From positions 1 to 37,020 of the forward strand of contig NZ_JAIVFN010000033.1 in assembly GCF_030015065.1 (NCBI RefSeq): 37,020 nt of DNA. Direction: 5' to 3'. Source of the stretch: Xanthobacter autotrophicus. Its GTDB lineage: Bacteria; Pseudomonadota; Alphaproteobacteria; Rhizobiales; Xanthobacteraceae. Below the pieces are notes generated by a model. That model was not told the origin of the DNA and searched no databases. It saw only the letters and a program-made list of their open reading frames with translations. Below, piece after piece: positions 3,459 through 32,381 of the stretch. Position 1 is the first letter of the stretch, and each line of letters begins with the position of its first letter. Both the position numbers and the translations under genes were made by a program.

Positions 3459-4151
3459 ATGAAGTCTGGCTTGCGCTTCGCCAAGGCGCTGCTTGCAGCG
3501 TTTGTCGTCATTTGTGCCGCCCAGCCCGCGCTGGCGCAGCAGAATCGCGGACATGTCTATTTGCTGCGCGGCCTCGCCAACGTCTTTTCGCTGGGCATGG
3601 ACGATCTGGCGGCCAAGATGAATGCGCGGGGCATTCCGGCCACCGTGCATGAATACGGACAGTGGCAGCAGCTCGCCGATGCCGCCGCCGCCGAGAGCCG
3701 GGCCTCGGGCAACGCGCCCATCGTCATCGTCGGCCATTCGCTGGGAGCGGACGCCGCCGTCGAGATGGCCGAGCGCCTCACCGCCCTTGGCGCGCCGCCG
3801 AAGCTGGTGGTGACCTTCGATCCGGTGGGCGTGACCCAGGTGGGTCGGTCGCTGGGCTATTTCGTCAACTATTACCAGTCCACCAACGGCTACGGTAAGC
3901 GCCTGACCGCCGGTCCCGGATTCCGCGGCAACATCGTGAACCGCAACCTCGACGCCATCGGCTCCATTGATCATTTCAACATCGAAAAGGCGCCGCGGCT
4001 GCACGAGGAGGTGATCAGCCAGGTGCGCTCCATCACCAACAAGCCGAAGCCGAAGCCCAAGCCAGCGGCTCCCGCGGCGCCGGCTGCCCCTGCCTCCGAC
4101 CCGTCCGCGCCCGGCACCCAGGCGGCCGCCAAGCCCGGCGCGCCGGGCTGA
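3459..4151 (+). CDS. Secreted alpha/beta-hydrolase (lipase-like)
   Basis: The protein has 230 residues when started at the ATG preceded by AAGGACGG at 7 bases; a longer in-frame extension upstream lacks both a ribosome site and a sensible N-terminus. Residues 1-26 form a clear Sec signal peptide (MKSGLRFAKALLAAF ... ALAQQ). The nucleophile elbow GHSLG is at about residues 92-96, with the serine at 94. TFDPVGV supplies a candidate acid residue and SIDHFNIE a candidate histidine, completing a plausible Ser-Asp-His triad. After the domain comes a low-complexity tail rich in Pro, Ala and Lys (KPKPKPKPAAPAAP), typical of a wall-spanning or linker segment. The substrate is unknown; esters or lipids are likely from the fold. 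A strong intrinsic terminator follows. Confidence 0.82.
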   Translation: MKSGLRFAKALLAAFVVICAAQPALAQQNRGHVYLLRGLANVFSLGMDDLAAKMNARGIPATVHEYGQWQQLADAAAAESRASGNAPIVIVGHSLGADAAVEMAERLTALGAPPKLVVTFDPVGVTQVGRSLGYFVNYYQSTNGYGKRLTAGPGFRGNIVNRNLDAIGSIDHFNIEKAPRLHEEVISQVRSITNKPKPKPKPAAPAAPAAPASDPSAPGTQAAAKPGAPG

Positions 4152-27019: not shown

Positions 27020-27049
27020 GCAAGGGGTGGCGCATTGGCTGCCCCTTGC
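27020..27049. terminator. Hairpin after the TPR-barrel gene, overlapping a FixK-type box
   Basis: GCAAGGGG and CCCCTTGC form a perfect 8-bp stem with a 14-base loop, 8 bases after the stop codon. There is no T-tract. The 3' arm contains the TTG half of the FixK-type box at 27046-27059, so the two functions, if real, would interact. Confidence 0.4.
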
Positions 27050-27059
27050 GCCACATCAA
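27046..27059. promoter_or_regulatory. FixK/FNR-type box upstream of hemN
   Basis: TTGCGCCACATCAA fits TTG(A/C)-N6-(T/G)CAA, the FixK2 box rule known from Bradyrhizobium. HemN genes are usual FixK/FNR targets. Its centre is only 30 bases before the first ATG of hemN, which is too close for a normal class-II promoter with a leader, so the box may act through a leaderless start or may be fortuitous. Confidence 0.55.
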
Positions 27060-28498: not shown

Positions 28499-28500
28499 AG

Positions 28501-28571
28501 GCGTTCTCTTTCTTGCGTTTAGAGGGCGATTCACAGAGCAAATTGTTTCAATTTGCTCGGATCGCGCTCTA
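28501..28571. repeat. Palindromic repeat, 71-bp right half copy
   Basis: This is 69/71 identical by eye to 28615-28685 and equals the right half of the 115-bp element. It contains the hairpin with arms GAGCAAATTG/CAATTTGCTC. It begins 2 bases after the hemN stop and ends where the full copy begins. Confidence 0.88.
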
Positions 28572-28685
28572 GAGCACGCGCCGATCTGCCTGCATCGCAA
28601 GCTGATCGGAGAACGCGTTCTCTTTCTCGCGTTTAGAGGGCGATTCACCGAGCAAATTGTTTCAATTTGCTCGGATCGCGCTCTA
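28571..28685. repeat. Interspersed palindromic repeat, full 115-bp copy B
   Basis: It has the same length and order as copy A at 10240-10354: AGAGCACGCG start, first hairpin with TGCATCGCA loop (arms here imperfect), the linker with TTCTCTTTC and GAGGGCGATTC, then a second hairpin and GCTCTA end. The second hairpin has arms GAGCAAATTG/CAATTTGCTC, whereas copy A has GATCAGATTG/CAATCTGATC; both changes are compensated. Confidence 0.92.
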
Positions 28686-28716
28686 AGGCCGGCGCGGCGG
28701 CCGGCTCTTCATGGCT

Positions 28717-28804: not shown

Positions 28805-29515
28805 TCAGGAATTCAGGCGCTTCAGCGCCACCCCGTCGCGCAGCACCACGCGGCGGGACGAGGGCAGGGCGATGGCCGAAATCTCCTCAAGATGGGTCAG
28901 GGTGCGCGACACCGTCTCGATGGTGAGGCCGAGGAAGTCGGCGATGTCCTGCCGCGACATGGGCAGCGTCACCTCGATGCCGTTCGTGCCCTGGCCGGAG
29001 CCGGCGCGCGCCGCCATGTCGAGCAGGAAGGTGGCGACCCGCTCCTGGGCGGTCTTGCGGCCGAGCACCAGCAGATGGTCCTGGGCGCGGCCGAGCTCGG
29101 AGGCGGTGAGCGCCCACAGAGCATGGGACAGCTCGGCGTCGTCGGCGGCGCGGGCGAAGAGAAGGGAGCGCTTCACGCGCACCACCTTGCATTCGCTCAC
29201 GGCCTCGGCGGAGAAGCGGTGGCGGAGCTCCATCTCCCAGCCGAACACGTCGCCGGCGAGGCAGAAAGTCTCGATCTGGCGCCGGCCATCGCCCAGCAGC
29301 TTGCAGATGCGTACGGCACCGGAGAGAACCACATAGAGATGGTCTGCAGCCTGATCCTCGCCGAAGATCTCGGCATTGCGGGCATAGGAGGCTACGACAC
29401 CGAGGCGGGCCACCACGTCGACGGGGGAACGGGCCTCGGCCTCGTCGCCCCAGCGCGGAGCGGTCATGGGATGCGCATAGGCCTTCTGGGCGATCGCTGC
29501 GGCGGGGCTCGGCAT
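28805..29515 (-). CDS. fixK: FixK-type CRP/FNR transcription regulator
   Basis: This 236-residue regulator has a CNBD-like sensor domain (about 35-150) and a helix-turn-helix (about 186-212, [21 protein letters not shown]). The E200-x2-S203-R204 pattern of the recognition helix equals the FNR E-x2-S-R code for TTGAT half-sites. The N-terminal cysteine cluster that FNR needs for its iron-sulfur cluster is missing, so the protein is FixK type and depends on control of its synthesis. The ATG has GGAAGGG at 7 bases. It diverges from fixL, and FixJ- and FixK-type sites lie between them. It activates high-affinity respiration and related genes under low oxygen. Azorhizobium-like FixK is the closest in appearance. 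Confidence 0.92.
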
Positions 29516-29557: not shown

Positions 29558-29571
29558 TTGACGCATCGCAA
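29558..29571. promoter_or_regulatory. FixK-type box in the fixK-fixL intergenic region
   Basis: TTGACGCATCGCAA fits TTG(A/C)-N6-(T/G)CAA. It lies between the FixJ-like site and the fixK start, near where the core promoter of fixK is expected, so repression of fixK by FixK is the simplest reading. Activation of fixL (start at 29683) is possible, but no -10 is found at class-II distance. Confidence 0.6.
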
Positions 29572-29586
29572 AATTCGGATCGAACA

Positions 29587-29615
29587 CTTAAGTCGGTGCC
29601 CTTAAGTAGTTTTAC
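29587..29615 (-). promoter_or_regulatory. Candidate FixJ-binding region upstream of fixK
   Basis: Two CTTAAGT heptamers start 14 bases apart (29587 and 29601). The second continues as CTTAAGTAGTTTTAC, which resembles the TAAGTA(A/G)TTT core of FixJ~P sites recalled from rhizobial fixK promoters. Location 72-100 bases upstream of the fixK ATG fits activation of fixK by FixJ. Confidence 0.6.
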
Positions 29616-29682: not shown

Positions 29683-31209
29683 ATGGCAGGCGGAATGGAC
29701 AGCGTGGTGACCAATATGTCCGCACGGCGCCCGGCCGGGCGGGTGCCGTGGACCGACGCCTTCGTCGGCGGCGCGGTGGCGCTTGCCGTGCTCGGGCTCG
29801 GCCTCGTCGTGGGCTTCCCCCCGTTCCGGGCCGAGGGGCTGATGCTCCAGCTCGCCGGGGTGATGCTGGTGAGCGGGCGCGGGCTCGTCGCCGGCGGCAG
29901 CGCGCTGGCGGTCGCCATCGCGGCGGGGGCGGCGCTCGCGCTGGCCACGGGCACAGGCAGCCCCACCGCCGGCAATGCGGGCTTCGATCCCGCGACGCTC
30001 GCCTTGTTCCTTGCGGTGGGCCTCGGCATCGCCATCCTGGGCGAGCGGCTGCGGCGCACGAGGCTCGACGCGGCGGCCCGCAACCGCGACCTGCTGGCGC
30101 GCGAGGCGCACCTGTCCTCCATCCTCGACACCGTGCCCGACGCCATGGTGGTGATCGACGAGCGCGGCATCATGCGCTCCTTCTCCAGCGCGGCGGAGCG
30201 CCTGTTCGGCTATACGGCGGCGGAAGCGGTGGGGCAGAACGTCTCGATCCTGATGCCGGGTCCGCACCGCCAGAATCACGACGGCTATCTCGGACGCTAC
30301 CTGGCGACCGGCGAGCGGCGCATCATCGGCATCGGCCGGGTGGTGGTGGGCGAGCGCAAGGACGGTTCCACCTTTCCCATGGAGCTGGCGGTGGGCGAGA
30401 TGCGCTCCGCCTCCGAGCGCTTCTTCACCGGCTTCATCCGCGACCTCACCGAGCGTCAGGAGACCGAGGCGCGGCTGCAGGAGCTGCAGGCGGAGCTGGT
30501 CCACATCTCCCGCCTCACCGCCATGGGCGAGATGGCGTCCACCCTCGCCCACGAGCTGAACCAGCCGCTCTCCGCCATCGCCAACTACATCAAGGGCTCG
30601 CGCCGGCTGCTGGATGCGGGAAGCTTCAAGGTGGAGATGCTCCAGGGCGCGCTGGAGAAGGCCGGGGAGCAGGCCCTGCGCGCCGGCCAGATCATCCGGC
30701 GGCTGCGGGACTTCGTCTCCCGCGGGGAGAGCGAGCGGCGGGTGGAAAGCCTCTCCAAGCTGGTGGAGGAGGCGAGCGCCCTCGCTTTGGTGGGCGCCAA
30801 AGAGCATGGTATCCAGGTGCGCTTTCAGTTTGACCCGAAGTGCGACCTCGTGCTCGCCGACAAGGTGCAGGTCCAGCAGGTATTGCTGAACTTGATGCGC
30901 AACGCCCTGGAGGCAATGATGGAGACGCCGCGGCGCCAGCTACTGGTGAAGACCGAGGCGGCAGAGGACGATATGGTGATGATCAGCGTCTCGGACACGG
31001 GCCACGGCATTTCGGCGGAATACGCCCCGCAGTTGTTCACGCCGTTCGTCACCACCAAGAGGCACGGCATGGGGGTGGGGCTGTCCATTTCGCGCACCAT
31101 CATCGAGGGTCATGGCGGCCGCATCTGGGCCGAACCCAATCCCCAGGGCGGCGCGGTGTTCCGCTTCACCTTGCGCGCGGTGGGCGAGGAGGTGGCGCTT
31201 CATGACTGA
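29683..31209 (+). CDS. fixL: Oxygen-sensor histidine kinase FixL
   Basis: The protein has 508 residues from ATG 29683 (AGGGA 4 bases upstream; ATG 29695 is an alternative). Three or four transmembrane helices occupy residues about 25-120. A PAS domain (about 140-255) holds the proximal haem histidine H199 in [17 protein letters not shown] and the signalling arginine R219 in IIGIGR. The kinase core has the phospho-histidine H290 in [13 protein letters not shown]-box N407, D438 in SDTGHG and the [12 protein letters not shown]-lid motif. Oxygen on the haem inhibits autophosphorylation. The match to Bradyrhizobium FixL continues through the whole C-terminal half. The ATGACTGA overlap with fixJ indicates co-translation. 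It diverges from fixK. Confidence 0.95.
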
Positions 31210-31843
31210 CGCTCGGGTCTCCGCGGTGATCCATGTCATCGACGATGACGAGGCGGTGCGCCAGTCGCTGGTCTTCCTGCTGGCCACCGCCGGACATACG
31301 GTGCTGGAGCACCCCTCGGCGCGTCATTTCGTGGAAGCGGGGTTGCCGGCGGCCGATCCGACCATCAGCTGCATCATCACCGACGTGCGCATGCCGGACA
31401 TGACCGGCATCGACCTGCTGCATCACCTGAAGGACAAGGGCTCCACCGTGCCGGTCATCGTCGTCACCGGCCATGGCGACGTGCCTTTGGCGGTGGAGGC
31501 CATGAAGCTCGGCGCCGCCGACTTCCTGGAAAAGCCGTTCGACGACGTGGCCATCCTGGACACGGTGAAGTCCGCGCTGTCGCGGCGCGAGAAGGCCCAC
31601 CAGCACGATGCCCTGCGCGAGCAGGTGACGGAGCGCATCGCCGCCTTGTCCCAGCGCGAGCGCCAGGTGCTGGAATGCCTGGTGGCCGGCCAGGCCAACA
31701 AGACCATTGCCTACGAGCTGGGCATCAGCCCTAGGACGGTAGAGGTATACCGTGCAAACGTGATGACCAAGATGAAGGCGCAGAGCCTGTCCGAGCTGGT
31801 GCGCATGGCGCTGCTGGCCGGCCTGACGCCGGGGGTGGCGTAG
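31202..31843 (+). CDS. fixJ: Response regulator FixJ
   Basis: The protein has 213 residues, with a receiver (about 8-125) and LuxR-type output (about 145-208). The acidic pocket is D14-D15-D16, the phospho-acceptor D61 lies in [13 protein letters not shown], the switch threonine in VVTGHGD, and the lysine in FLEKPF. The output helix-turn-helix is [16 protein letters not shown] ... [15 protein letters not shown], a FixJ/NarL type. The ATG overlaps the fixL stop by 8 bases. It is phosphorylated by FixL at low oxygen and then activates fixK; candidate sites are visible upstream of fixK. A FixK-type box and promoter follow its stop, serving the next gene. Confidence 0.96.
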
Positions 31844-31880: not shown

Positions 31881-31929
31881 TTGATCTAACGCAACGCCGG
31901 ATCCCTCCTCCCAAAGTAGACTGAACATA
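31881..31929 (+). promoter_or_regulatory. FixK-dependent class-II promoter for the stand-alone receiver gene
   Basis: The box TTGATCTAACGCAA (31881-31894) fits TTG(A/C)-N6-(T/G)CAA. The hexamer TAGACT (31917-31922) shares four bases with TATAAT, and its centre is 32 bases from the box centre, exactly the class-II FNR/FixK spacing. The predicted start of transcription is near 31929, leaving a leader of about 66 bases before the ATG at 31995. Confidence 0.75.
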
Positions 31930-31994
31930 AATCGACCACGCGGACCCTTCCGGCCGGGTGGACCCACGAGGGGGTCGTGGGAAGGATGTGGCAG

Positions 31995-32381
31995 ATGATC
32001 GTGTCCAACGCGGCGCCCGCCTTCGTCGTCCACGTGGTGGATGACGATCCGGCCGTCTGCAGCTCGCTGAAGTTCGCGCTGGAGGTCGATGGCTTCAGCG
32101 TGCGGACCTATGCGCGCTCGGAGGACGTGCTCGCGGCCGACCTGTCCGGTGGCTGCATGATCGTGGATTACAATCTGCCCGGCCTGAACGGCCTCGACCT
32201 GCTGCGCGAGCTCGACCGGCGCCAGGTCCACCTGCCGGCCTTCCTCATCACCAGCAATCCCGCCCAGCACGTGCGCCACCGGGCCACCGCCCAAGGCGTC
32301 GCCATCATCGAGAAACCCCTCCTCGGCAACCAGCTCAGCGAGGCCGTGCGCGACAGTTTCGTGCGGTCCGGCCACTGCTGA
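31995..32381 (+). CDS. Stand-alone receiver-domain protein next to fixLJ
   Basis: The protein has 128 residues from ATG 31995, with GGGAAGG 9 bases before it; ATG 31986 and GTG 31977 are possible but poorly spaced. It is a complete receiver and nothing else: acidic D16-D17-D18, phospho-acceptor D58 in MIVDYNLPGLNG, T86 in LITSNP and K107 in IIEKPL. No output domain follows, so it may take phosphate from FixL, or bind a partner protein. It has its own FixK-type promoter, so it would be made when the FixLJ-K cascade is on, as expected for a feedback element. From memory, Bradyrhizobium has a comparable single-domain regulator gene between fixJ and fixK2; this should be checked. Confidence 0.85.
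   Translation: MIVSNAAPAFVVHVVDDDPAVCSSLKFALEVDGFSVRTYARSEDVLAADLSGGCMIVDYNLPGLNGLDLLRELDRRQVHLPAFLITSNPAQHVRHRATAQGVAIIEKPLLGNQLSEAVRDSFVRSGHC

Follow-up and report, generated by a model that had tools for sequence, protein, structure and literature searches.

FixT, a single-domain receiver, inhibits the autophosphorylation of FixL in Sinorhizobium meliloti and Caulobacter, and neither of the two studied FixTs has been seen phosphorylated or acts as a phosphate sink (PMC7078487). The same paper, of 2020, describes the gene as prevalent among Rhizobiales. A second single-domain receiver, Osp of Rhodobacter sphaeroides, likewise inhibits a histidine kinase within a feedback loop, and loss of the acidic pair has been offered as the reason why FixT and Osp go unphosphorylated (PMC9430884). 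In S. meliloti the genes follow the order fixL-fixJ-fixT-fixK, and 89 bases ahead of fixT stands the box TTGATCTCGCGCAA, which is nearly identical to the one described below. Negative autoregulation of fixK in this organism is reportedly indirect and said to need FixT (a result ascribed to Foussard, 1997). In Bradyrhizobium the gene for Bll2758 is placed between fixLJ and fixK2 and was up 1.9- to 4.5-fold in three strains (soybean roots, elevated CO2; PMC4070659); it appears in a microoxia table (PMC6515984), and a comparative study names the product a novel OmpR-family regulator and gives it no role (PMC4999443). In 2022 the auto-repression of fixK2 in Bradyrhizobium was put down to an “as yet unidentified mechanism” (PMC9104804), and there is a fixK2 reporter in which part of bll2758 is deleted. 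A figure legend of 2026 describes RPA4249 of Rhodopseudomonas palustris as homologous to FixT (PMC13327599).

The window, that is the whole stretch of 37,020 nucleotides from Xanthobacter autotrophicus analysed here, holds a comparable gene (Table 1).

Table 1. Features of the fixK-fixL-fixJ-receiver region (positions in the window).
Feature	Position	Strand	Basis or remark
Receiver-only gene, FixT-like, 128 aa	31995..32381	+	Pfam, residue alignment, AlphaFold2 model
Alternative starts of the receiver gene	31986 and 31977	+	less likely than ATG 31995
fixJ	31202..31843	+	Pfam receiver plus GerE; NCBIfam FixJ 297.8 bits, cut-off 255
fixL-like histidine kinase gene, running into the start of fixJ	29683..31209	+	PAS, HisKA, HATPase_c (Pfam)
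fixK-like Crp/Fnr regulator, divergent from fixL	28805..29515	-	Pfam; FixK model 235.6 bits, below cut-off 300
FixK box TTGATCTAACGCAA, 5' of the receiver gene	31881..31894	+	rule match; conserved in relatives
-10-like hexamer TAGACT	31917..31922	+	32 bases from box, centre to centre
Leader hairpin CCCACGA-GGGGG-TCGTGGG, adjoins and overlaps Shine-Dalgarno-like GGGAAGG	31963..31981	+	
Candidate FixJ-like site TTAAGTCGGTGCCCTTAAGTAG, between fixK and fixL	29588..29609		motif partly made by the authors
Second FixK box TTGACGCATCGCAA, between fixK and fixL	29558..29571		rule match

The FixL-like kinase reaches 621.6 bits on the NCBIfam FixL model, below its cut-off of 850. For the receiver gene the ATG is preferred to the two upstream starts because GGGAAGG (31979-31985) lies nine bases ahead of it and because the MIVSN or MIASN N-terminus that it yields is common to close relatives. 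Elsewhere in the window a FixK box, TTGCGCCACATCAA at 27046-27059, precedes a radical-SAM gene that we take to be hemN-like and that is another likely FixK target, and between this gene and fixK (28500-28690) there are two near-identical copies of a repeat of about 75 bases with an inverted repeat (GAGCAAATTG...CAATTTGCTC). The genome also encodes a second FixJ-like regulator (G000:C23:24870-25469; 215.8 bits on the FixJ model, below the cut-off of 255), and among the remaining matches of the receiver this one ranks first (38%).

The earlier note on this DNA described the gene after fixJ as a stand-alone receiver with all phosphorylation residues intact, and this holds: Pfam recognises a receiver domain and, beyond it, no output domain, and the acidic pair D19 and D20 as well as D61, T89 and K110 (P0001 numbering) are all present. 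The protein is not a FixJ, which joins a receiver to a GerE/LuxR-type DNA-binding domain, since it has no output domain and receivers of its kind group apart from 21 FixJ proteins in the tree described below. An AlphaFold2 model built from 17 sequences adopts a complete receiver fold (mean pLDDT 84.8), and the closest solved sequences are the FixJ receivers 1d5w and 5xso. Helix 1, where kinases dock, is 47% identical to that of the window's FixJ, as against 20-40% to seven other receivers, whereas the β5-α5 loop displays no preference for FixJ (27%, with 27-36% to the other receivers).

The distribution of the gene follows that of FixJ. Among 61 genomes near that of the window, with the receiver called at E 1e-20 or better, it is present in 24, namely 13 of 14 from the genus, 11 of the 23 others of the family and 0 of 24 from other families. 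The FixJ model scores above its cut-off in 30 of the 61; 24 of these 30 carry the receiver, and none of the 31 genomes without FixJ does. In the one Xanthobacter without the receiver (G010) a FixJ match is likewise absent, and two of the six FixJ genomes that have no receiver at E 1e-20 (G020 and G032) have a profile match beside FixJ. The gene directly upstream on the same strand is fixJ in 20 of the 24 relatives; at the other four loci (L027, L028, L030 and L031) fixJ was not found directly upstream and the FixK box is kept. A scan of named genomes, which used the receiver profile alone and of which 80 of 175 passing loci were retained, covers Xanthobacter, Azorhizobium, Aquabacter, Bosea, Methylobacterium, Microvirga, Kaistia, Reyranella, Brevundimonas and Phenylobacterium among others, and 76 of the 80 fetched stretches contain fixL, fixJ or fixK (fixJ in 75, fixL in 72 and fixK in 64). 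A profile search of 296 genomes returned 279 matches that include other receivers and therefore give no family count, and 20 places were chosen from it by us; in the Caulobacteraceae a profile match occurs in 30 of 60 genomes, and 18 loci were read.

We consider it quite unlikely that the receiver conveys the low-oxygen signal to some other target, such as another kinase or an enzyme, and puts no brake on FixL. Single-domain receivers can act through protein contacts in many ways (PMC7078487), and the four relatives in which fixJ was not found directly upstream would agree with such a role, but the dependence on FixJ across the 61 genomes is near-perfect, the fixT gene of S. meliloti occupies the same place, and the nearest solved kin of the protein is FixJ.

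The box ahead of the receiver gene satisfies the FixK2 rule TTG(A/C)-N6-(T/G)CAA (PMC9104804). Its centre at 31887.5 and that of the hexamer at 31919.5 are 32 bases apart, the arrangement of a class-II FixK promoter, and for a site centred at -41.5 the arithmetic places the predicted +1 near 31929. The window contains three rule matches where 0.82 are expected; since 3 of 100 shuffles also reach three, this count alone is weak evidence. The comparison of loci goes beyond chance. A strict box lies within 400 bases upstream of the receiver match in 24/24 relatives, and a box is present at 68 of the 80 named loci, while 1.46 per 80 are expected when these stretches are shuffled with their dinucleotides preserved, and the background in the rest of the 80 loci, which includes other FixK promoters, amounts to 5.6% per stretch or about 4.5 per 80. 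Downstream of the 68 boxes the similarity to TATAAT is greatest at offset 36, which is the spacing of the window (mean of 2.41 of 6 letters; next best 1.84). Boxes were likewise found at 20 of 20 further family loci picked by us, 19 of which have fixJ upstream, and at 16 of the 18 Caulobacteraceae loci read. The coordinates and these counts thus confirm the box and the hexamer at 32 bases that had been claimed from the window's sequence. It is very improbable that the box arose by chance and that transcription of the gene is mere read-through from fixLJ; such an account draws on the position of the gene after fixJ on the same strand and on the low excess of rule matches in the window, yet it has to face the excess of boxes over the shuffled expectation, the -10 peak at the class-II offset, and the retention of the box at the four loci where fixJ was not found directly upstream. 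The predicted regulation of the receiver gene by FixK from the box at 31881 is strongly supported by comparison of the promoters.

Five Caulobacterales, six Microvirga and one Aureimonas make up the 12 named loci without a box. At the Caulobacterales loci (L060, L077, L078, L080 and L111) the same-strand gene immediately upstream is fixK, and the 400 bases ahead of this fixK match contain no box. The Microvirga and Aureimonas loci (L087, L088, L092, L093, L095, L110 and L085) have upstream a site like TTAMGG-N6-CCKGARTRG that resembles the site in the window's fixK promoter and is also seen at five loci with a box. This FixJ-like motif was drawn up with the window's fixK promoter and the leaders of Microvirga already in view, which makes its presence at 7/7 of these loci a post hoc finding; counting both strands, the 80 loci (622,414 bases) contain 36 matches to it. 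At the 12 box-less loci control seems to have taken another route, at these seven as if it had passed from FixK to FixJ, with the gene still inside the FixLJ circuit. In two plasmid records (L113 and L114) no box precedes the annotated start and a rule match falls at the start or nine bases inside it, and these receiver starts may have been annotated too early.

The hairpin in the leader was considered as an RNA switch and is not claimed as one. Its 3' arm occurs in 11 of 16 leaders checked and is absent from the other five. The downstream hairpin is paired in 77 of 77 cells with no two-sided changes, and an alternative upstream hairpin that uses the same arm shows pairing in 87.3% of cells and has two two-sided pairs, a result that 41 of 500 shuffles reach. 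The folding energy of the leader is ordinary (z -0.39). Within its own genome the hairpin has its only exact match at 31963-31981, and single-mismatch places number 10 and 9, little above the control (6 and 5), this place being counted in both.

The earlier note held FixT to be an unrelated protein, and this part of its interpretation has to be given up: FixT is itself a single-domain receiver (PMC7078487), and in S. meliloti its gene lies between fixJ and fixK, behind TTGATCTCGCGCAA. The promoter logic, the coupling to FixLJ and FixK and, by comparison, a likely feedback role stand. On the NCBIfam FixT model NF051882 the window receiver obtains 37.9 bits, below the cut-off of 150, but the genuine FixT of S. 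meliloti falls short of it too, at 28.8 bits; the cut-off was therefore rejected as a test of membership and marks the FixT of Caulobacter, not the family. Only one of 14 control genomes, Caulobacter vibrioides, has a match above it, and the FixT of a Caulobacter-like genome (L174) lies above it as well. In the window's genome this receiver gene is the one match to the model at E 1e-5 or better, and among ten other genomes of the family seven have matches, of which the best is always the family's receiver, and three have none. The FixJ model, by comparison, gives the receiver 76.6 bits. Searched in reverse with the receiver family profile, two S. meliloti plasmids return FixJ first (E 1.4e-24), with FixT at E 1.4e-4 and 2.1e-4, and in a Caulobacter-like genome FixJ ranks third and FixT comes at E 2.5e-3; FixT thus falls far behind FixJ and other receivers in these searches.

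Two trees bear on the same relationship. The first, which contained the long rows L008_own and L193_own, was not clean, and L008_own fell among the receivers. The second, from which both rows had been dropped, has a branch (support 99/89) that separates 48 receivers, picked by us for spread, together with the two FixTs from 21 FixJ and five other receivers; a tree that groups the FixTs with FixJ nevertheless passes the AU test (p-AU 0.33), and the branches of the two FixTs are long. Common descent of the window receiver with FixT is likely on these alignments, and we conclude that the protein probably works like FixT and is a FixT. Two other markers were tried and discarded. Cys57 is found in 119 of the 120 rows of the alignment described below, yet 18 of 21 FixJ have it too, and a supposed fused receiver of a hybrid FixL in R. 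gallicum (L193), considered as a Rosetta stone, lies in an open frame of its own between FixL-like and FixJ-like genes, each about 38% identical.

The phosphorylation site was compared in 120 rows, comprising the window, the 80 named loci, 20 further of the family, 17 further Caulobacteraceae, the Caulobacter-like FixT and the S. meliloti FixT, with several rows per species possible. The whole site is kept in 82 of the 120, and the acidic pair, D61 and K110 alone in 105. The 38 rows with a changed site consist of the two FixTs, 23 rows that differ at T89 only, Microvirga among them, and 13 that are changed at the acidic pair, D61 or K110, including Kaistia and Brevundimonas. An intact site is thus common, though not universal, among genes that stay in the circuit, which calls into question the view that FixT is inert as a receiver. 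Two loci, L030 (1501-1827) and L172 (receiver at 4001), have altered acidic motifs (NND and NDD) and EQP in place of EKP, with a box still upstream.

The kept site is the only reason why the window receiver could still draw phosphate from FixL. Phosphorylated by FixL, it might compete with FixJ as a phosphate sink or inhibit FixL only in its phosphorylated state. All the residues required are present here and the whole site recurs in most rows, and the offered reason for the unphosphorylated state of FixT and Osp, loss of the acidic pair (PMC9430884), does not apply. We nevertheless regard a sink or a phosphorylation-gated brake as unlikely, since neither studied FixT is phosphorylated or acts as a sink (PMC7078487) and the 13 rows with a changed acidic pair, D61 or K110 remain in the set, so that phosphate is not needed in all members.

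The receiver-only protein, the conserved box at class-II spacing, and the linkage to and co-occurrence with FixJ are well supported by the sequences, and we think it fairly probable that the window gene encodes a FixT-type feedback inhibitor of FixL that is made when FixL and FixJ have raised FixK. At low oxygen FixL would phosphorylate FixJ, and phosphorylated FixJ would raise fixK, two steps that are established in related systems. FixK would raise the receiver from its box, and the receiver, by analogy with the FixTs of S. meliloti and Caulobacter, would bind FixL and lower its autophosphorylation, whereby fixK and the low-oxygen regulon would settle at a set level. More tentatively, the window's FixT may be phosphorylation-competent, such that FixL phosphorylates its own FixK-induced inhibitor and the brake responds to the current activity of FixL as well as to the amount of FixK. 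The site would then be a normal possession of the family, from which the FixTs of S. meliloti and Caulobacter have diverged, and fixK2 auto-repression in Bradyrhizobium would have its missing agent in bll2758, a combination that we rate as rather improbable.

The kind of gene was already known (PMC7078487), whereas its intact phosphorylation site and its connection with fixK2 are new. Genes of the bll2758 type together with the window gene appear to fill the place of FixT in many Alphaproteobacteria, as their sequences and surroundings suggest. This makes bll2758 a candidate for the auto-repression of fixK2 in Bradyrhizobium, unless earlier work has already tested it. A literature search, whose reach ended at subscription papers, returned no paper that ties bll2758 to fixK2 auto-repression, gives it a role or notes its intact site. 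A study of fixK2 autoregulation (Reutimann, 2010) and a chapter on negative regulation of FixK2 (Fernandez, 2016) may already have tested the gene.

Compared with the described systems, the window receiver is like the S. meliloti FixT (P0002 in L115) in being a single-domain receiver after fixJ with a FixK box ahead of it, with 33% identity over 48 residues. It differs in that the S. meliloti protein has AA for the DD of the acidic pair, has T89 replaced and sits on the longest branch of the tree, and in that fixK is divergent from fixL in the window and downstream of fixT in S. meliloti. The Caulobacter FixT, too, consists of one receiver domain, and its gene is a neighbour of fixLJ and fixK and is preceded by FixK boxes; its acidic pair is broken, and its four-cysteine motif, which binds an Fe-S cluster (PMC7078487), is absent from the window receiver. 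The intact acidic pair thus sets the window receiver apart from both studied FixTs. Osp also lacks the pair, and its target is CckA (PMC9430884). Bll2758 and RPA4249 are likened to the window receiver by their published descriptions and by the gene order in putative Bradyrhizobium genomes, in which fixL, fixJ, the receiver and fixK follow one another, with a box and an intact site. This order bears out the earlier note's mention of a similar Bradyrhizobium gene near fixK2, and it differs from that of the window in that fixK stands downstream of the receiver and not divergent from fixL.
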